Shown: piece by piece, positions 20,265 to 45,843 of the stretch | Position numbering within the stretch: position 1 is the first letter of the stretch | Layout: every line of letters begins with the position of its first letter | NCBI GenBank assembly: GCA_024635755.1 | Contig: JAGXIF010000007.1 | Coordinates: 1-64,000 of the forward strand | DNA from: Halothiobacillus sp. | Lineage (GTDB): Bacteria; Pseudomonadota; Gammaproteobacteria; Halothiobacillales; Halothiobacillaceae | DNA: 64,000 nucleotides | Direction of reading: 5' to 3' | Translations under genes and position numbers: made by a program | Notes under the pieces: model-generated | What the model saw: the letters and a program-made list of their open reading frames with translations, nothing else | Told to the model about the DNA's origin: nothing | Databases searched by the model: none

Positions 20265-23200
20265 ATGCACGAGGAGCCATTGCCCCACGCCCCCCCCTTC
20301 GATGATGTCCTCGCTCGTCTGGAAGCGTTTGCCGAACGAATGGGAAACCGGCTGGCGCGCGACGAGGCCATGACCGCCGTGTTGGAGGCTGCAGCCACCT
20401 GCTTTCCATCACTCACTCGGTCGGCAGTGTTCAGCAGCGCCGATGGCAACCTGATCGCGGCGACGCAGGATTTCGACATTGCCCTGCTGCCGCAAGGCGA
20501 TGCCGATCTGCACTCGATCGAACAGGTGGAGGACCAACTGGTCCTGCATAGCCTGGGCGCAGACCAGCCCGAAACGGGCTATTGGGCCATCGAAATCACC
20601 GGCGGCCTCCCCGCCGACCCCGTGCGCGACGCCGTCTTGGGACTACTCCACCGCCTGTTCGGTAGCGGCCGTCCCGATGCCGCTCGCCTGGAACGCGTGC
20701 GGCGCGGGCAGGTCGAGCGCCTCGAACGCGACCAGGCCCTGATGCAGTCACTGCTGGCCCAGATCGACACCCTCATCATGGCCGGGGACGTGGAGGATAT
20801 GCTCGCGGTGGTCTGCACCCAGCTGGTGGAGACGGGGCTGTTTCTCTGTGCCTGGGTCGCCGGTAGTCGCGGGGACCTCTCGCCGCTGGCCAGCGGGGGC
20901 GACAGCGAGTTGATCGACCATCCCTCCACCGAGGCCCACCAAGCCCTGAGGGAAGGATTCCGCCGTGCAGAGGCCTTGGTGCAAGCCAAGCACAGCATTG
21001 TCTTCGATGAACATATCGCGGCCCCGTTCGCCAGCCAGAGCTGGTTCGACACGCCACCGATGGCCGCGCTGATCCCATTGTCGCGCCATGATCGGTTGTG
21101 GGCGTTCCTGGTCGTGGTGGCCGCTTGCGAAGAGGATCTCGATCAGCAGGTCACCGACGTCCTGATCCACTTGAGTGACCTCGTCAATCGCAGCCTCGAA
21201 CAGCTAGACCTGCGCGAATGGCTCGACGAGGAACAGCGGCGCAACACCTACCTGGCCTACCACGATCCGCTGACCAACCTGGCCAACCGCCGGGCGGTGG
21301 ATGCCGAATTGCCCAAGGCCATGGGGCGCGCCGACCGGCATCAACAGATGCTGGCAATCGTGCTGCTCGATCTGGACGACTTCAAACCGATCAATGATCG
21401 CTACGGCCATGCCGCCGGCGACGAGATGCTGATGACGGTGGCCAAGCGGCTGAAATCGGCGATTCGGGACACCGACACCGCCGCACGCCTCGGCGGGGAT
21501 GAATTTCTGCTGATACTCGAGGACATCGAAGCCGATGCCGGGCTGGCGCGGGTTCTCAACCGCCTATCGCACACCATCCGCAAGCCGATCCTGCTCGAGG
21601 ACGGCCTTGAGCTGCATGCCAACGGCTCGATCGGTGTCACCCGCTACCCGCTGGACAATGGCAATTCGGAACAGCTGATCCGCAACGCCGACGCCGCGCT
21701 CTATTCGGCCAAGAACAACAAGGCCCAGCGGACGCAAGACTGGGTTATATGGCAGGAGAGTACGCCGAACGACGGGCCCGAGCCCCATCACGCCTCAGAC
21801 GAACTAGCCCCCTACGGCCCGGAGGCAAAGGCACTCCTCGAACCCATCCAGCCGGAGATCGAGGCGCTGACCGACGAGTTCATCGAACGCTTTCACCAGG
21901 AACTGACCCAGCACGAATCGGTCCGACGCGTCATCAAGCACCTCTCGTCGGAGGAATACCAGGTTCTCAAGCGGGAACAGGCCGACCACCTCCACTTTTT
22001 GCTCGCCCCGGGGCTCGATCAGGAGGCGCACGCCAATCACGCCCGCCACGTCGGCTACATCAGCGCCCTCGCCGGGGTTTCGCCCAGCAACCTGGTGCGG
22101 GCGATCACGGTGTACATGCACGAGTTCAACCAGACGTTCAATCGGGCCCATCTCAACCAGCGCCACCAGAACCGACTCGAGCGGGTCTTCACCGAGCGGT
22201 TGAGCCGCGAGCTCTCACACCAGCTGGATGCCGGCCAATCGGTGGGCGACGAGTACCAGGGCGCCCTGACCGTGATCGACGAGCGCCGGCGCCGGGAACA
22301 CAACTGGCCCGACTTCAACGAACACCTGCTCGACACCCTGATCGGCCTGCCGGGCATCGCGGGGGTTTCGATTCTGTCACCCGACGGCGACGGACGCTTT
22401 GTCGCCAACTACAGCGAAGGTCTCGACCCGTTTGCCGTTCCCGCCGAGCGTGACACACGCCCGACGCTGGACCTCAATCTCCTCGGGGCCGATCACCCCG
22501 TGTCGCGCGCCTACCGGTTGGCACAGCTGGAGCAGATCGAGAACTACGCGGTGGGCGAACGCTGGCTGCCGTGGCGCGCCCAGGCCCAGACGACAGACAT
22601 TCGTACCACCACCGCCATCCCCATCCTCGGAAATCGCGACCAACCGATCGCCGTGATCTGTCTGCACGGCCACATTGCCGGAATGTTTGACAACCCCCTG
22701 ATCAGCGGTTTCTGCGTTCAGCTCATGGCCCTGGTCAGCCAGGCGTGGCGGCAAATTCGCAGCCCGGCGGCCCTGCTCTATGCCAAGGGCGACTACGACC
22801 GCTGGCGTCAGGCCTTCTACGATGACGGCCTGGAGATGATCTTCCAGCCGGTGATCGACGTTCAGACCGGCCGACTGACCACCCTCGAGGCCCTGGCGCG
22901 CTTGTTCCTGCCCGACGGCGAAATGATCATGCCCAACATGTTCATTCCCTGGCTCAACGACAGCCAGGTCATGCGGCTGTTCGAGGTCGGCCTGGAGCAG
23001 TCGTTACAGTGCCTGCACGACTGCGAGACCCACGACGGCCGGCAGTTGTCGGTGGCCATCAACCTGCCGGTCAACGTACTCATCGATCCGGCCACTCCCG
23101 GCCACATCCAGGCAGCACTCGACCGCCATGGCATCAGCCCCCACCGGGTCACGCTGGAGTTGCTGGAACAGGGCGACACCGGCTTCGAGCCGGGCGAATT

Positions 23201-23876
23201 GGCCAAGCCCATGGATCGCATCGGGGCCATCGGCGTGAGGCTTGCCATGGACGATCTGGGTTCCGGTTACAACAACCTGCTGCGCTTGCGCAGCCTGCCC
23301 TTCTCCACGGTCAAGATCGACCAAGGCATGGTCCGGGCGGCACAGAACGAACCCGGCCGCGTGCTTACCTTCATTGCCTCGATGATCCAGATGGCCCACG
23401 CCCTCGAACTGCAGACCGTGGTCGAGGGACTCGAGACCCTCGATTTGATCGAGGCCACCTCCCTGCTCGGCGGCCAGCTCGGGCAGGGTTATGCCATCGC
23501 CCGCCCGCTGCGCAAACACGATCTGCTGACATGGATGGACCAGTTCGATTTCGGCATCGATCCGAGCCGACCGACGACGCCACTGGGCGCCATGGCCGCA
23601 CTGTGGGGGCTTCGCGCCCTCGGTCGGGATCACCTGGAGCATTCTGCTCGGCACCATCAACTGCGGGTCGCGGCCTCGCACTGGGCGACCGAACACCTCG
23701 ACACCCAACGCGCGCTGGCCACCGACATCCTGTCGATGTTCCAGCAGTTCCGCGAGGGCAACCTGGGACACGATGCCCGTGATCGGCGTCTGAACGAACT
23801 GATGCAGGCGCTGGACCGGATGATCCGCGACCAGGCGGGCCTCGAGGCGCCTGTCAGCAACGCGCTGGACGCCTGA
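20265..23876 (+). CDS. GAF-GGDEF-globin-like-GAF-EAL c-di-GMP protein
   Basis: 1203 residues, no membrane helix. Order: N-terminal region and GAF-like domain (about 150-320); GGDEF domain with intact RLGGDEF (409-413) and an I-site RDTD exactly five residues before it; a globin-like sensor (about 516-648, with HVGYISALAGVSPSNLVRAI); a second GAF-like domain (about 680-830); an EAL domain (842-1095) with TLEALARL, the metal-site pair in MDDLGSGYNNL, KIDQGM and VVEGLET; and an unassigned helical tail of about 108 residues. Both c-di-GMP synthesis and hydrolysis residues look complete. The tail overlaps the convergent gene by 23 bases. Confidence 0.93.
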   Translation: MHEEPLPHAPPFDDVLARLEAFAERMGNRLARDEAMTAVLEAAATCFPSLTRSAVFSSADGNLIAATQDFDIALLPQGDADLHSIEQVEDQLVLHSLGADQPETGYWAIEITGGLPADPVRDAVLGLLHRLFGSGRPDAARLERVRRGQVERLERDQALMQSLLAQIDTLIMAGDVEDMLAVVCTQLVETGLFLCAWVAGSRGDLSPLASGGDSELIDHPSTEAHQALREGFRRAEALVQAKHSIVFDEHIAAPFASQSWFDTPPMAALIPLSRHDRLWAFLVVVAACEEDLDQQVTDVLIHLSDLVNRSLEQLDLREWLDEEQRRNTYLAYHDPLTNLANRRAVDAELPKAMGRADRHQQMLAIVLLDLDDFKPINDRYGHAAGDEMLMTVAKRLKSAIRDTDTAARLGGDEFLLILEDIEADAGLARVLNRLSHTIRKPILLEDGLELHANGSIGVTRYPLDNGNSEQLIRNADAALYSAKNNKAQRTQDWVIWQESTPNDGPEPHHASDELAPYGPEAKALLEPIQPEIEALTDEFIERFHQELTQHESVRRVIKHLSSEEYQVLKREQADHLHFLLAPGLDQEAHANHARHVGYISALAGVSPSNLVRAITVYMHEFNQTFNRAHLNQRHQNRLERVFTERLSRELSHQLDAGQSVGDEYQGALTVIDERRRREHNWPDFNEHLLDTLIGLPGIAGVSILSPDGDGRFVANYSEGLDPFAVPAERDTRPTLDLNLLGADHPVSRAYRLAQLEQIENYAVGERWLPWRAQAQTTDIRTTTAIPILGNRDQPIAVICLHGHIAGMFDNPLISGFCVQLMALVSQAWRQIRSPAALLYAKGDYDRWRQAFYDDGLEMIFQPVIDVQTGRLTTLEALARLFLPDGEMIMPNMFIPWLNDSQVMRLFEVGLEQSLQCLHDCETHDGRQLSVAINLPVNVLIDPATPGHIQAALDRHGISPHRVTLELLEQGDTGFEPGELAKPMDRIGAIGVRLAMDDLGSGYNNLLRLRSLPFSTVKIDQGMVRAAQNEPGRVLTFIASMIQMAHALELQTVVEGLETLDLIEATSLLGGQLGQGYAIARPLRKHDLLTWMDQFDFGIDPSRPTTPLGAMAALWGLRALGRDHLEHSARHHQLRVAASHWATEHLDTQRALATDILSMFQQFREGNLGHDARDRRLNELMQALDRMIRDQAGLEAPVSNALDA

Positions 23877-38547: not shown

Positions 38548-39810
<1,263 letters not shown>

Positions 39811-39823
39811 TTACGCTCGGATT

Positions 39824-40171
39824 TCAAGCCGTGGGCGAATCCAGGCCGGATTCCAGGTGCATCAGGTCGTCCAGACCGTACACACCCATCATCGGGCGCA
39901 TGGCCTTGGGCGCGTGAGTGTACCGCAGTCGTATCCCTTTTTCCTCGCCCCGGGCCTGCAGGGCGGTGAGCCAGGCCAGCCCGGCCGTGTCGAGACGCCG
40001 GACCTGCCCGAGGTGCATATCCACTGCCGGACCGATCACACCCTCGGGCATGTCGGGCTTGACCCGGTCCAGCGCGGGGCGCACCAGATCACCACTGAGA
40101 CGGATCACTCCCGGCTCGACCCGCCACTCCCAGCAAGGGGCGCCCCCCTGATCGGCGGCATCACTGTTCAT
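39824..40171 (-). CDS. mlaB: STAS-domain protein MlaB of the Mla lipid transporter
   Basis: 115 residues. STAS fold: VIRLSGDLVRPALDRV, VDMHLGQVRRLDTAGLAWLT, then a helix with ARGEEKGIRLRYTHAPKAM. MlaB binds the MlaF ATPase in the cytoplasm and is needed for complex stability. The DTAG segment matches the conserved loop. It overlaps the end of mlaC by 11 nt and leads into murA. Confidence 0.9.
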   Translation of the reverse strand: MNSDAADQGGAPCWEWRVEPGVIRLSGDLVRPALDRVKPDMPEGVIGPAVDMHLGQVRRLDTAGLAWLTALQARGEEKGIRLRYTHAPKAMRPMMGVYGLDDLMHLESGLDSPTA

Positions 40172-40832
40172 TCTGTTCGCGCAGGGTGCGGATCAGACCG
40201 TCAAGGCCATCGCGCTGGATCTTCTGCGCAAAGCTGCCGCGGTAGTTGTTGACCAGGCTGATCCCGTCGACGATCACGTCGTAGGACTTCCACTCACCGT
40301 TGACCGGGGCCATGCGATAGGCCACCGGCACCGTGCCGAGATCACCGCCGGACACTTCGGACTCGACCACCAGTTCTTCATCCGCCCCACCGGGCTTGGT
40401 GCCTATGATCGTGACCTCCTGGTTCCCCAGCTCGGACAGCGGCCCGGCATAGGTACGCACCAGCAGCCGCTGGAATTCCTTGGTGAAGGCGGCCCGCTGG
40501 CCGGCGCTGGCCTGGCGGTAATAGCGCCCCAGCACCAGGCGCGTCATGCGTTGGGAATCGACGTGCGGTAGCAACAATCGGTCGACAATTTCCAATAGCG
40601 CCTCGTGGTCCGCCTCAATGGCGGCCCGACTGTCCCGAATTTCGGCGATCACCGCCTCGGCGGTGTCCTCCACCAGGGCGCAGGCCTCGGCCTCGGCCGG
40701 CTGTTCGGCACGGGCGGCGAACGACAGACCGACAAGGATCAGGGTGGCAATCCCCACCCAGATGCGGGACGAGTTTCGCGGCGCGGAAGACCGAGGACTG
40801 TCGATGGATTGGAAACGCATAAACACACTCAT
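40161..40832 (-). CDS. mlaC: Periplasmic phospholipid shuttle MlaC
   Basis: 223 residues from ATG 40832, overlapping the TolC-like stop as ATGA. A signal peptide spans about residues 24-42 (IWVGIATLILVGLSFAARA). The Tol_Tol_Ttg2 domain follows: LLLPHVDSQRMTRLVLGRYY, FTKEFQRLLVRTYAGPLSEL and SYDVIVDGISLVNNYRGSFA. MlaC carries phospholipid between the outer-membrane MlaA-porin complex and inner-membrane MlaFEDB. No mlaA is in the window. Confidence 0.95.
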   Translation of the reverse strand: MSVFMRFQSIDSPRSSAPRNSSRIWVGIATLILVGLSFAARAEQPAEAEACALVEDTAEAVIAEIRDSRAAIEADHEALLEIVDRLLLPHVDSQRMTRLVLGRYYRQASAGQRAAFTKEFQRLLVRTYAGPLSELGNQEVTIIGTKPGGADEELVVESEVSGGDLGTVPVAYRMAPVNGEWKSYDVIVDGISLVNNYRGSFAQKIQRDGLDGLIRTLREQNEQ

Positions 40833-42265
40833 TGCGGATAATCACCGGTCGCCACGGCAAGCTGGGCGACGCTCATGTTGTAATCGTTGATCTTGCGGAA
40901 ATAGTCGGCTTGCGCCTCGGTATTGGCACGCACGGCATCGGCAAGCTTGCCGCCGTCGATCAGCCCGGCCTGGAAGTCCATGAAGCTGGAGAGCATCCAC
41001 CGGCGGGTGTTCTCCTTGGCGGAGCTCAGGGCTCGAATCTGGCGGTCCAGACCCTGGCTCTGGTGATAGGCCTCGGCGACCTGGAACGGGATGCCCTGCC
41101 GGGCGAGTTGCGCCTTGGCGACCACGCCCTGCATCTGGGCCTCGGCATCGCTGATATTGGCGCGCACCACACCCGGATTGAACTCCCACTGCACGCCGAT
41201 GACGGGCGTGGCATAGGCCTGGTTGAGTGGCTGATTGATATAGGGGTTGTTCAGCCGGTCCCGCTCCGGGGTGTAGGCCCCACCAGCCACCACGCCGGCG
41301 TAGAGGTTGGGAAAGATCTCGTTCTTGCGCGCCGCTACATAGGAGCGCATCGCGGCCTGTCCTTTCTCGGCCATCGCCATCTCCGGGCGTTGGGACAACG
41401 CCTGCTGCGCCAGATCGGCCAGCTCCTGCTCCGGCATGGCGATCGGCTCGATATGCGACGCGGCCACGGTCAAATCGGCATCGATCGGCAGCCCGATGAT
41501 GGTCTTCAGGCCATCGAGCGTGATCGCCTCGACGCTCTCGGCCTCGGCCAGGTAGCGCTCGAGCTGGGCCGCGCCGCTCTCCAGCGCGTAGAGCTCGCTC
41601 ATGGGGGCCCGGCCAGCCTCGGCGTCCTCGCGCATGCCGTCCCGGGTCCGGTCGACCTGTCGCTTGACCCCCTCGAGCATCTCACGGGTGTCCCGGGCGG
41701 TCAGGTAGCCCCAGTAGGCACGGCGCACGGTCAGCCAAGTCTTGCCCCGGGTGATCGAGACCTCGGAGCGACTGACGTCGCGATTGAGCCGCGCGGCCTT
41801 TTCGTAGTTCGCCAGCTTGCCGAAGGTATACAGCGGCTGGATGATCGAGGCGGTCAGGCCGGTCGTGACGGTGAAGCCCTCGTCGAGATCCGTGCCGTCG
41901 TCACGCAGGGTGCAGGAATCGCCTGCAGGACAGGTGTTGGTCCCGTTGGTGAATATCCCGTCGGAGGCCTTGGGCGCAATACCAGCATACAGATTGGTCG
42001 ACACACGCAGGCCGCCCTCGCCCCTGACTCGCTCGATCAGTGCCTGGGCGCGCGCCACGTTGGCGCGCTGCTCGTCGATGCGAGGATCGGAGGACAGCGC
42101 CATCTCGGTGGCCTGCTCCAGGGTGATCGGCTCAGCGGGTGCCTGCATGGAAGCCCCGCCGACAACCCCCACCGGCTGGCCGGCAACCGGCATCGCGACG
42201 CCGAACAGCCCCGCCGCCAGGAATGCGGCACGACCACGATCAAGGATTCGCTCACTTGTCTTCAT
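40829..42265 (-). CDS. TolC-family outer-membrane channel protein inside mla operon
   Basis: 478 residues. A signal-like N terminus (AAFLAAGLFGVAMPVAG) and two OEP repeats of long helices: ITLEQATEMALSSDPRIDEQ, YGEKAARLN-type coiled segment near YEKAARLNRDVSRSEVSI, then ELADLAQQALSQRPEMAMAE and YATPVIGVQWEFNPGV. It is of ordinary TolC length. The placement is unusual: it sits between mlaD and mlaC, overlapping both by 4 nt (ATGA), so it is translated with them. It may give the Mla system an outer-membrane partner (inference). Confidence 0.9.
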   Translation of the reverse strand: MKTSERILDRGRAAFLAAGLFGVAMPVAGQPVGVVGGASMQAPAEPITLEQATEMALSSDPRIDEQRANVARAQALIERVRGEGGLRVSTNLYAGIAPKASDGIFTNGTNTCPAGDSCTLRDDGTDLDEGFTVTTGLTASIIQPLYTFGKLANYEKAARLNRDVSRSEVSITRGKTWLTVRRAYWGYLTARDTREMLEGVKRQVDRTRDGMREDAEAGRAPMSELYALESGAAQLERYLAEAESVEAITLDGLKTIIGLPIDADLTVAASHIEPIAMPEQELADLAQQALSQRPEMAMAEKGQAAMRSYVAARKNEIFPNLYAGVVAGGAYTPERDRLNNPYINQPLNQAYATPVIGVQWEFNPGVVRANISDAEAQMQGVVAKAQLARQGIPFQVAEAYHQSQGLDRQIRALSSAKENTRRWMLSSFMDFQAGLIDGGKLADAVRANTEAQADYFRKINDYNMSVAQLAVATGDYPQ

Positions 42266-42720
42266 TCTTTTGCCTTGTCGAACAGAAACTTGGAAACCAC
42301 GCTCTCCAGGATGATCGCCGACTGCGTCATGGTGATCCGGTCGCCATCCTGCAACGATTCGAGCGACCCGCCCGGTGAAATCTCGATGTATTTCGCGCCG
42401 AGCATCCCCGCAGTATAGATATTGGCGAAAGAATCGGTCGGCAGGTTGTCGTACTTGTCGTCGATCACCATGCGCACCTCGGCCTGAAAGGTCTCGGGGT
42501 GGATCTCGATCGAACCGACCCGGCCGATGGTCAACCCCGCCAGCTTGACCGGCGATTGTTCGCTCAACCCGCCGACATTATCAAATCGGGCCAGCACCTC
42601 GTAGCCGCTGATCCGACTGGCGCCGAAATTGCTCCACTGCAGGGCCATTACCATCAATGCCGCGATCCCGGCGAGCACGAACAGCCCGACCACCAGCTCG
42701 ACTCCGCGTTGCACATTCAT
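42262..42720 (-). CDS. mlaD: MCE-domain protein MlaD
   Basis: 152 residues from ATG 42720; TTG at 42735 is less likely. N-terminal membrane anchor (GVELVVGLFVLAGIAALMVM) and one MCE domain: FDNVGGLSEQSPVKLAGLTI, GRVGSIEIHPETFQAEVRM, and AGMLGAKYIEISPGGS. MlaD forms the hexameric ring over MlaE that passes phospholipid. It starts 4 nt after the mlaE stop. Confidence 0.96.
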   Translation of the reverse strand: MNVQRGVELVVGLFVLAGIAALMVMALQWSNFGASRISGYEVLARFDNVGGLSEQSPVKLAGLTIGRVGSIEIHPETFQAEVRMVIDDKYDNLPTDSFANIYTAGMLGAKYIEISPGGSLESLQDGDRITMTQSAIILESVVSKFLFDKAKE

Positions 42721-42724
42721 TTCA

Positions 42725-43513
42725 TCAAGCCCCAAACATGAAAGCAGTCATTACAAAATCCAGGCCCAGGACGGCGAGCGAACTCAAGACCACCGTCTGG
42801 GTCGTGGCACGCGCCATGCCGCTTGCCGTCGGCTCGGCGCGATACCCCTCGTAGACCGAGATCAGGGCAATCACCGCCCCGAAGGCCAGCGACTTGAGGG
42901 CCCCTTCCGCCACATCGTCCCAGGGGTCCATCTGCTCGCGAATCTGTCCCCAGAAGGAGGCCTGATCCACGCCCAGCACGACCACCCCGATCAGGTAGCC
43001 GCCAATGATACCCACCATGGAAAACATGGCGGCCAACAACGGCACCGAGATCAACGCCCCCCAGAAGCGCGGCCCGATCACCCGGCGCATTGGGTCGACG
43101 GCCATCATTTCCAGCGCCGCGAGCTGCTCGGTGGTCTTCATCAGCGCGATCTCGGCGGTGATCGCCGAGCCGGCCCGGCCCGCGAACAGCAGCGCGGCGA
43201 CCACCGGCCCCAGCTCGCGCACCAGCGACAGGGCCACCATCACGCCCAGCGACTCGGTGGCATTGAACTTGTTGAGGATGTTGTAGCCCTGCAGACCCAG
43301 CACCAGGCCGACAAAGCCGCCGGCAACCAGGATGATGACCAGGGAGAGTACCCCCGCGGCATAAACCTGCTGGGCAACGTCACGCGGACGAGACCAGGTG
43401 GGAAACAGGACCACCGCCAACCGCAGGGCGAACAGGGCCATCGAGCCGGCGTGGGCCACCGCGTCAATGGCCAGGCGCCCCAGTCGACTGATCGCATCCA
43501 GCAGGGCCGTCAT
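42725..43513 (-). CDS. mlaE: Mla transporter permease MlaE
   Basis: 262 residues with five to six membrane helices. Permease motifs: QVYAAGVLSLVIILVAGGFV, ELGPVVAALLFAGRAGSAIT and the EIALMKTTEQLAALEMM coupling segment that contacts the ATPase; MVGIIGGYLIGVVVLGVD and SLAFGAVIALISVYEGYRA follow. The start overlaps mlaF (ATGA). Confidence 0.96.
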   Translation of the reverse strand: MTALLDAISRLGRLAIDAVAHAGSMALFALRLAVVLFPTWSRPRDVAQQVYAAGVLSLVIILVAGGFVGLVLGLQGYNILNKFNATESLGVMVALSLVRELGPVVAALLFAGRAGSAITAEIALMKTTEQLAALEMMAVDPMRRVIGPRFWGALISVPLLAAMFSMVGIIGGYLIGVVVLGVDQASFWGQIREQMDPWDDVAEGALKSLAFGAVIALISVYEGYRAEPTASGMARATTQTVVLSSLAVLGLDFVMTAFMFGA

Positions 43514-44349
43514 GACCGCCCGCCCAGGCCGAGGTCCTCGGCCAGTGGGGCTTGTTGGTCATCGGCATTGAGCGGCCCTTCGGCATTGCCGTCGAGAAAC
43601 TGGGCCAGCGCCGGTTCTGCCTCCCGTTGCGCCAGCACCTCGTCCGGGGTGCCCGAGCCGATCACGCGCCCGCCGGCCAGCACGATCACCTTGTCCGCGA
43701 TGCTCATCGCCTCCTTGACGTCATGGGTGACCACCACGCTGGTCAACGCCAGCGCGTCGTTGAGCCGGCGAATCAACCGCAGGAGCACACCCATGCTGAT
43801 CGGATCCTGGCCGGCAAACGGTTCATCGTAGAGCATCAGGGCCGGGTCAAGCGCCATGGCGCGGGCCAGGGCGGCCCGCCGTGCCATGCCGCCCGACAAC
43901 TCGGCAGGATATTTGTCTCGAGCAGCGCGCAGGCCCACGGCCTCGAGCTTGAACAGCACGATGCGTCGGATCAGCTCCTCGTCCAGTTGCGAGTGGGCCC
44001 GCAAAGGAAAGGCGACGTTCTCCCCCACCGTCAGATCGGTGAATAGCGCACCGTTCTGAAACAAAACCCCCATGCGCCGCCGCAGGGCGTACAACGACTT
44101 GCGGCGAACCCGGTTGACCTCGACACCGTCGACCAACACCCGACCCCGGGCGGGTCTCTCCTGCCCCCCGACAAGGCGCAGAAGGGTGGTCTTGCCGGTT
44201 CCCGATGGGCCGAGCACCACCGTCACCTGCCCACGCGGAATGCTCATGCTCACGTCGGAGAAGATGGTCTGGGCACCGCGGGCGAACGTCACGCCCTCGA
44301 GCTCGATCATGGCCGCCGAATCGGCCCGCGTGGATCGCTCTGGCGTCAT
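43510..44349 (-). CDS. mlaF: Mla transporter ATPase MlaF
   Basis: 279 residues. ABC ATPase: Walker A VLGPSGTGKTTLLRL, Q-loop GVLFQNGALFTDLTV, signature ELSGGMARRAALARAMA, Walker B LMLYDEPFAGQDPIS, and switch His VVTHDVKEA. The C-terminal extension of about 35 residues fits the segment that binds the neighbouring MlaF and MlaB. It is second in the operon, overlapping the 164-residue unknown gene by ATGA. Confidence 0.96.
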   Translation of the reverse strand: MTPERSTRADSAAMIELEGVTFARGAQTIFSDVSMSIPRGQVTVVLGPSGTGKTTLLRLVGGQERPARGRVLVDGVEVNRVRRKSLYALRRRMGVLFQNGALFTDLTVGENVAFPLRAHSQLDEELIRRIVLFKLEAVGLRAARDKYPAELSGGMARRAALARAMALDPALMLYDEPFAGQDPISMGVLLRLIRRLNDALALTSVVVTHDVKEAMSIADKVIVLAGGRVIGSGTPDEVLAQREAEPALAQFLDGNAEGPLNADDQQAPLAEDLGLGGRS

Positions 44350-44976: not shown

Positions 44977-45843
44977 TCACGGTGTGATTTCGCGCACCAG
45001 CCGGAAGCCCAGATTGAGGTCGAATTCATTCTCGTGACGTGGTGCGCGGGATCCGCTGCGGCACGCGCCCGGCGGATTGAACCACGACCCGCCCCGCACC
45101 GCGCGCATCTTGCGATACCTGGCATTCAGGCTGCGATACGGCCGATCGCCCGACCGGGGCCCGCCGGGATACGATTCGCTCCAGTGATCCTGGGTGAATT
45201 CCTGCACGTTGCCGTGCACCTCGCACAGGCCCCAGGCATTGGCCGGCAGACTCATCACCTCGACCGGCCGTCCCAGACCGCACAGGAACCAGCCGCGGGT
45301 ACAGTGCAACCCGCCCGCGCAGTTGACCTCCTCGCGGCGAATGCGGTCGCCAAAGCAGAACATCTGGTCGCTGCCTGCACGCGCGGCGTACTCCCATTCG
45401 GCCTCGGTGGGCAAGCGGTAGGCCTGGCCGGTCCGCTCGCTCAACCAGGCGGCGTACGCCTCGGCGTCTCGAGCCGAGACATTGAACATGGGAAAGTCCG
45501 GGTTGGTCCAGCTATAGGGGCGAGGCCAGCGGTGGTCAGTGGCACGCAGGAATGCCAGATACTCGCGGCGGCGGATTGCCCCACGGGTCATGGCGAAAGC
45601 CCGGGCGAAGCGGATCTCGTGGCGCGGCTGCTCACTCGCCCTGGCGCCGTGCTCGCCCGCCCGGCTGCCCATCCAGAAACCCCCGGCCGGGATCAAGGCC
45701 AGATCCGGTGCCGGAATGCCGTCCGACATCCGGTCATGGAATCGCGGCGGGAGGGCCAGCGCTCGCGCCGCCTCGGCCTGCCGTTCGACGATCGAATCGA
45801 CCGATTCCACCTGCTCTGCCGCTGCGACAAGCTGCATCCACAC
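44977..45843 (-). CDS. SUMF1/FGE-like domain protein
   Basis: 288 residues, no signal peptide. SUMF1 fold: ALIPAGGFWMGSRAGEHGAR, FNVSARDAEAYAAWLSERTG, YRLPTEAEWEYAARAG, NAWGLCEVHGNVQEFTQD, VRGGSWFNPPGACRSGSRAP, then LGFRLVREI. True formylglycine-generating enzymes have a second Cys shortly before the CRSGSR one; here that place is occupied by Asn, so sulfatase activation is unlikely. Related proteins act in ergothioneine-like chemistry or as ligand-binding modules. No sulfatase gene is near. It is divergent from kdsD. Confidence 0.88.
   Translation of the reverse strand: MWMQLVAAAEQVESVDSIVERQAEAARALALPPRFHDRMSDGIPAPDLALIPAGGFWMGSRAGEHGARASEQPRHEIRFARAFAMTRGAIRRREYLAFLRATDHRWPRPYSWTNPDFPMFNVSARDAEAYAAWLSERTGQAYRLPTEAEWEYAARAGSDQMFCFGDRIRREEVNCAGGLHCTRGWFLCGLGRPVEVMSLPANAWGLCEVHGNVQEFTQDHWSESYPGGPRSGDRPYRSLNARYRKMRAVRGGSWFNPPGACRSGSRAPRHENEFDLNLGFRLVREITP

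Follow-up and report, generated by a model that had tools for sequence, protein, structure and literature searches.

A TolC-family channel gene within the mla operon of Halothiobacillus and other proteobacteria, and its candidate role at the outer-membrane end of Mla

We identified a gene for a TolC-family protein between mlaD and mlaC in the mla operon of Halothiobacillus sp. (GCA_024635755.1, contig JAGXIF010000007.1), within the 64,000-nucleotide stretch of DNA analysed here, which is referred to as the window. We think it probable that this dedicated channel is the outer-membrane partner of the Mla system, in place of MlaA, and that it works with MlaC. Support for this reading comes from the gene order, its conservation, the modelled fold of the protomer, the lack of a detectable MlaA in most carriers, and the occurrence of mlaA in the same operon slot elsewhere. 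Since tolC is mostly present in genomes where MlaA was not found, the evidence suggests that, in a range of environmental proteobacteria, Mla has come to use the channel at its outer-membrane end.

The mla operon of the window

The operon and its neighbours are as follows (all on the minus strand).

38548..39807, minus: murA (PF00275), the downstream neighbour, as in E. coli
39824..40171, minus: mlaB, STAS protein of 115 aa, located after mlaC; STAS_2 44.5 bits, MlaB model 27.8 bits (cut-off 90)
40161..40832, minus: mlaC, 223 aa; PF05494 170.5 bits (cut-off 26)
40829..42265, minus: tolC-family gene of the mla-linked subfamily, 478 aa from an ATG start; PF02321 in two stretches
42262..42735, minus: mlaD, 157 aa, short, with one MCE domain; TIGR04430 164 bits (cut-off 135), PF02470
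42725..43513, minus: mlaE permease, 262 aa; NF033619 364 bits (cut-off 315)
43510..44349, minus: mlaF ATPase, 279 aa; top match PRK11831/MlaF 331.5 bits (cut-off 441), PF00005
44346..44813, minus: orfX, 155 aa in this translation, with a stop codon that overlaps the start of mlaF
44977..45843, minus: FGE/SUMF-type gene, upstream of mlaF; PF03781 149.9 bits

MlaD and MlaE both score above the NCBI equivalog cut-offs, while MlaC (85.6 against 195 bits), MlaF (331.5 against 441) and MlaB (27.8 against 90) fall below theirs, each being nonetheless the top-listed family. The assignment of MlaC as the carrier is given by PF05494, though the protein lies below the equivalog cut-off, and 40161..40832 is the sole MlaC match in the genome. 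Homologues of orfX, for which no Pfam match was found, lie upstream of mlaF mainly in Halothiobacillaceae loci, and the FGE/SUMF-type gene recurs in the majority of Halothiobacillaceae loci whose flank is long enough. Between murA and the FGE gene, the window holds only the Mla components and the orphan, and no adaptor (MFP/HlyD) or pump gene adjoins tolC in this interval. Further outer-membrane efflux protein (OEP) genes are present in the genome; one of these (L001) resembles E. coli TolC at the tip, from which it appears that the cell retains a canonical TolC.

The earlier note had described a TolC-like gene between mlaD and mlaC that overlaps each neighbour by 4 nt, and both the open reading frame coordinates and PF02321 agree with that description: the junction is AATGA at the mlaD side and CAATGAG at the mlaC side. 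Judging from these overlaps, co-translation of tolC with its neighbours is plausible. Of 119 loci scored at mlaD/tolC, 77 offer a start codon that overlaps the preceding stop by 4 nt, as do 68 of 123 at tolC/mlaC, in a set of loci that partly repeats genomes. A 528-aa frame antisense to tolC (40832..42418, plus strand) is probably spurious, the window having 65% GC and many long open reading frames.

Two OEP repeats in the protein are recognised by the Pfam family PF02321, at 115 bits against a cut-off of 22. Its scores against the curated TolC subfamily TIGR01844 (47.4 bits, cut-off 225.15) and the NodT subfamily TIGR01845 (31.8 bits, cut-off 210.05) place it in neither. An AlphaFold2 model computed from a 54-row alignment (pLDDT 84.3, pTM 0.73) has the predicted fold of a TolC protomer, with four barrel strands and long helical hairpins, and Foldseek matched this model to CusC, OprN, OprM and TolC at a TM-score of about 0.7 and 13-17% identity. 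Searching the PDB with the single TolC sequence returned no match; a profile search returned two, both CFA/I fimbrial fusion chains, which we take to be spurious. The nearest relatives, at 72-88% identity, are in Guyparkeria, Halothiobacillus and Halothiobacillaceae records.

Distribution of the mlaD-tolC-mlaC arrangement

The order mlaE-mlaD-tolC-mlaC was found by tblastn of the window genes on the respective loci in 27/27 genomes of the order, which represent 4 genera of one family and include 22 genomes of at least 90% completeness. Each of the 27 has one MlaC match and a tolC orthologue, and the orthologues in the other 26 genomes are 44-88% identical to that of the window. Conservation throughout the order argues that the arrangement is not a chance one.

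Within a sample of the class, a profile built from 17 family members identified a tolC orthologue in 45 of 369 genomes, or about one in eight, at E <= 3.3e-103 and across 21 family codes; the next-best match was at 8e-15, once a piece of a split gene in one of the carriers is set aside. Regions were fetched for 40 of the 41 carriers outside the order, G113 being omitted since its tolC and mlaC lie on different contigs. The next recognised gene after tolC was mlaC in 40/40 of these regions, and the recognised gene before it was mlaD in 37/40, including G222, where two unrelated open reading frames intervene between mlaD and tolC. No mlaFED was seen beside tolC-mlaC in G385 (L122) and G290 (L125), and the G334 region stops at a contig end. 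Upstream of tolC-mlaC in G290 are frames that by eye are FabA-like and sodium/calcium-exchanger-like.

Scanning named genomes, we confirmed 107 relatives and retained 79 loci; mlaD-tolC-mlaC is present in 76 of these loci. The exceptions are L215, which has mlaC and no mlaD within 1.7 kb upstream, L218, which begins at a contig end, and L188, which ends at one. These loci and those of the class sample come partly from the same genomes and the counts are not additive. The gene is not confined to metagenome bins: Guyparkeria hydrothermalis R3 (L142) is one named isolate that has it, and Sulfuriferula multivorans TTN (L169) is another. In a sample of the phylum, 5 of 398 genomes matched at E <= 1e-20. 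Three of these lie outside the class, and mlaD and mlaC flank tolC in all five. A survey of mla operons for this insertion, as the earlier note had proposed, thus recovers it throughout the order, in 45/369 class genomes and in three genomes beyond the class. Natural fusions of MlaE, MlaD, TolC or MlaC were absent from the loci examined. In one carrier (G116, C3:7000-22000, minus strand; L114), the mla operon that includes tolC has a 277-residue MlaD frame in which two MCE domains apparently follow each other in tandem.

Presence and absence of MlaA

We found no match to Pfam MlaA in the genome of the window (88% complete), and the order's 27 genomes, with completeness of up to 100%, gave none either; the same model matched in the control genomes of E. 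coli and Caulobacter. In the class sample, MlaA is present in 286/369 genomes and MlaC in 342/369, with MlaC in 45/45 tolC carriers. MlaA is absent from 41 of the 45 carriers as against 20 of 297 MlaC-bearing non-carriers (Fisher p 4e-33, uncorrected for kinship, with some genomes in these counts being incomplete). A profile tuned to the class, built from 31 class MlaA proteins and applied at E <= 1 to 68 carriers (27 of the order and 41 others) and three positive controls, gave no credible match in 64/68 carriers, and it recovered MlaA in the controls and in carriers G109, G127, G154 and G222. Three further matches (E 0.075-0.38, over 32-52 positions) look like chance. The MlaA of G109 is part of a second mla operon, and for G127, G154 and G222 no Mla gene was recognised in the roughly 11 kb fetched around mlaA. 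A normal MlaA elsewhere in the genome, which the earlier note had named as speaking against its proposal, was looked for and not found in the window's genome, in 27/27 genomes of the order and in 41/45 class carriers.

Twenty MlaC-bearing genomes of the class have neither MlaA nor an mla-linked TolC (e.g. G042, G118, G120, and G143). Their existence means that the absence of MlaA does not require an mla-linked TolC and, as several of them are nearly complete, that another outer-membrane partner may exist.

mlaA and tolC in the same operon slot

In G330, G249, G133 and G069, the gene between mlaD and mlaC is mlaA, and mlaA also has this position in second operons of G109 and G310. G330 shares its family code with tolC carriers G101 and G228, and G109 has two mla operons (L115 and L268), one with tolC and the other with mlaA between mlaD and mlaC. 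No other single observation argues as well as this shared slot for the two proteins meeting one and the same need. Among 30 randomly drawn MlaA-bearing genomes, mlaA lies in the slot in two, G310 and G069. No match to mlaA or mla-linked tolC was found between mlaD and mlaC in 34/34 MlaA-bearing, tolC-free loci with mlaD in view; these are the 40 loci L286-L325, taken from the upper portion of the list of MlaC matches, less five with a lone mlaC and less G249, which was fetched because its MlaA adjoined MlaC and is not counted in the 34. The slot is empty in four of the twenty genomes with neither protein (G233, G118, G212, and G336), all with mlaD in view.

Evolutionary history of the channel and its operon

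We built a tree of MlaE, MlaD and MlaC from 91 operons, in which nearly all non-carriers had been picked for having MlaA. On this tree, the presence of tolC changes at least 7 times when branches below 0.9 are collapsed into soft polytomies and 10 times by Fitch parsimony (shuffled labels: mean 30.5, minimum 20), with 11 changes on an IQ-TREE tree. The distances among TolC proteins agree closely with those among MlaE, MlaD and MlaC (Mantel r 0.93, n=46; the largest of 500 permutations gave 0.49), which indicates that the channel travels with the operon. The channel may have been ancestral with later losses, or the operon may have moved.

The same tree yields 4 phylogenetically independent pairs when only supported branches are used and 10 when all branches are. 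In the 4 pairs, MlaA changes in the opposite direction to TolC in 3.4 on average and in the same direction in 0.0, which is not significant (p 0.125-1). By the counts, TolC and MlaA are accordingly strongly anti-associated, with a consistent direction, but shared descent may account for the pattern. Among alignment columns of MlaC, MlaD and MlaE that track TolC, those of MlaC looked enriched (subset comparison with MlaE p 0.028, with MlaD p 0.13), an enrichment that was gone after matching for variability (p 0.57 and 0.40).

Proposed role of the channel and alternative explanations

We propose that MlaFEDB would handle phospholipid in the inner membrane, as in E. coli, that MlaC would ferry it across the periplasm, and that MlaC may exchange it at the periplasmic mouth of a TolC trimer. 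In this proposal we infer the contact of TolC with Mla proteins, MlaC and not MlaD as the point of that contact, the trimeric state of TolC, and phospholipid as the cargo, which may move in retrieval or in export. The lumen of TolC is not an obvious route for an outer-leaflet lipid. MlaC is kept with tolC where the block is broken: G222, G290 and G385 lose the mlaD side and not the mlaC side. Together with a short MlaD and the presence of MlaC in every class carrier, this favours exchange between MlaC and TolC over docking of MlaD. The earlier suggestion that the channel replaces MlaA as the outer-membrane partner is supported by the 41/45 carriers in which MlaA was not found and sits less easily with the four that hold both MlaA and the mla-linked TolC. 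The other possibility raised there, a direct link from MlaFEDB to the outer membrane, is less favoured given the short MlaD (157 aa), the retention of mlaC in 45/45 carriers and the side on which broken blocks come apart. A more far-reaching picture, in which the outer-membrane half of Mla is swappable, with either of two unrelated proteins, the MlaA lipoprotein or a TolC trimer, in the same slot of different lineages and with TolC acting as a channel for lipids rather than drugs that would give the cell a lipid conduit to the exterior, is one that we put forward tentatively and with some doubt.

Several other explanations bear on the same observations. MlaFED and TolC might together form an exporter, in which the MlaD hexamer docks on the tip of the TolC trimer, the MCE ring replaces the usual adaptor, and a lipid or hydrophobic compound is pushed out with MlaC as an accessory. 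Docking of a hexamer on a trimer is known from AcrA-TolC and would offer such an exporter a precedent by analogy. No adaptor gene lies between murA and the FGE gene of the window, tolC closely follows mlaD and often overlaps it (77/119 loci), and the MlaD with two tandem MCE domains in carrier G116 could perhaps build a taller stack. MlaD is short, however, and its tail past the profile has a median of 4 residues both in carriers (n=119) and in other loci (n=36), for which reason we rejected the tail as a bridge; mlaC is moreover present in 45/45 carriers, and the three broken blocks lose the mlaD side and not the mlaC side. We regard this exporter as unlikely.

More improbable still is that tolC encodes a regular efflux channel, placed in the operon only for reasons of expression and working with unlinked pumps, with MlaA lost for other reasons. 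TolC-family channels often work with unlinked pumps, which lends this explanation some general support, as do the 20 MlaC-bearing genomes with neither MlaA nor an mla-linked TolC and the 4 carriers that keep MlaA. It does not readily account for a single subfamily holding the slot in 76 of the 77 named loci whose sequence extends to either side of it, for TolC distances that follow those of the operon itself (Mantel r 0.93), or for the spread of the subfamily, which reaches 21 family codes within the class and three further genomes beyond it, and the genome has other OEP genes. Many named carriers are sulfur oxidisers by name (Halothiobacillus, Thiobacillus, Sulfuriferula, and Sulfuricella), and the association might mark this life style instead of a lipid function. 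SoxB, however, is above its cut-off in 22/45 carriers and in 13/35 non-carriers with MlaA (out of 90 picked at random, the 35 with the lowest numbers), with no clear difference; we rejected the link to sulfur oxidation through SoxB on these counts and consider a life-style marker very improbable. We thus retain the partnership of the channel with Mla, probably through MlaC, as the preferred reading. If it is correct, MlaFEDC with a TolC-family channel would separate the job required of the outer-membrane partner from the particulars of MlaA, and TolC-family channels would gain a role in lipid traffic.

Relation to known systems

The window operon resembles that of the E. coli Mla system (MlaFEDB-MlaC-MlaA/OmpC) in its mlaF-E-D-C-B order, flanked by kdsD-kdsC and, at the opposite end, by murA. 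It differs in having tolC between mlaD and mlaC, where E. coli has no gene, in keeping with the earlier remark that the classical mla operon is without a channel gene; in the absence of a detectable MlaA; in having the FGE gene and orfX where E. coli has yrbG; and in missing ibaG. Because MlaA was looked for and not found, the system of the window is, on its gene content, set apart from six-component Mla. In relation to the TolC/OprM/CusC outer-membrane factors, the likeness lies in the fold and the two OEP repeats, while the channel of the window differs in having no adjoining adaptor or pump gene and in its hallmarks RRW (421-423) and GIP (391-393).

The nearest precedent, going by the parts of PMC10665443 used here, is the mlaEFD-tolC-tamB arrangement of Veillonella parvula and the Negativicutes, in which a tolC homologue directly follows mlaEFD and MlaA is absent. 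In those parts, the Veillonella MlaD is long and carries a beta-barrel, MlaC is missing, the envelope bridge is ascribed to MlaD, and TolC is used as an outer-membrane marker. The window differs from the Veillonella type, with its long MlaD bearing a C-terminal beta-barrel and no MlaC, in that its MlaD is short (157 aa) and MlaC is present. The same portions describe the direction and details of Mla transport as still controversial. As far as the sections of PMC6424457 used here go, the Neisseria mla operon also includes a gene for the outer-membrane partner, which is MlaA and not TolC. The chimeric Mla-Pqi system Mpc of Brucella, according to the portions of PMC12436622 drawn on, is Mla-like, lacks MlaA and has another outer-membrane partner; this partner is a PqiC-like lipoprotein, MlaC is lacking, and the MCE protein forms a needle. 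The part of PMC5561183 considered, a survey of MCE gene neighbourhoods in Proteobacteria, mentions MlaA in an operon, contains no instance of the term 'outer membrane efflux', and refers to TolC only as a membrane marker. A search of openly licensed, published papers found no tolC gene between mlaD and mlaC, nor does one appear in the portions used of PMC10665443, PMC5216662, PMC6424457, PMC12436622, PMC5561183 and PMC11784454.

Conserved residues of the channel protein

Three features of the protein stand out within the alignments of the subfamily.

40946..40948, minus: codon of Lys440, at the second periplasmic tip; K in 33 and R in 9 of 54 rows (basic in 42/54)
40997..41005, minus: codons of Arg421-Arg422-Trp423, a subfamily hallmark near the second periplasmic tip; R in 52, R in 52 and W in 53 of 54 rows
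41087..41095, minus: codons of Gly391-Ile392-Pro393, midway along the long helix 364-432

The GIP stretch is invariant in 17/17 rows of alignment A1 and in 54/54 rows of alignment A2, many rows of the latter, and none of the former, coming from a scan in which this stretch was one of two search patterns. Further conserved positions are D430 (53 of 54 rows), A433 and G434 (54 each). MAFFT places Lys440 on Asp393 of E. coli pre-TolC, while a weak local hhalign alignment takes another register; a charge swap at the second tip may be taken as a lead only, given this uncertainty of register. Extracellular loop 2 may be conserved (0.74 against a family mean of 0.64), but the control, 10 usable paralogues from 15 regions, is too shallow to gauge this and we set the loop aside. 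Elsewhere in the window, positions 20265-23876 encode a 1203-aa protein with GGDEF, EAL, GAF and protoglobin domains.
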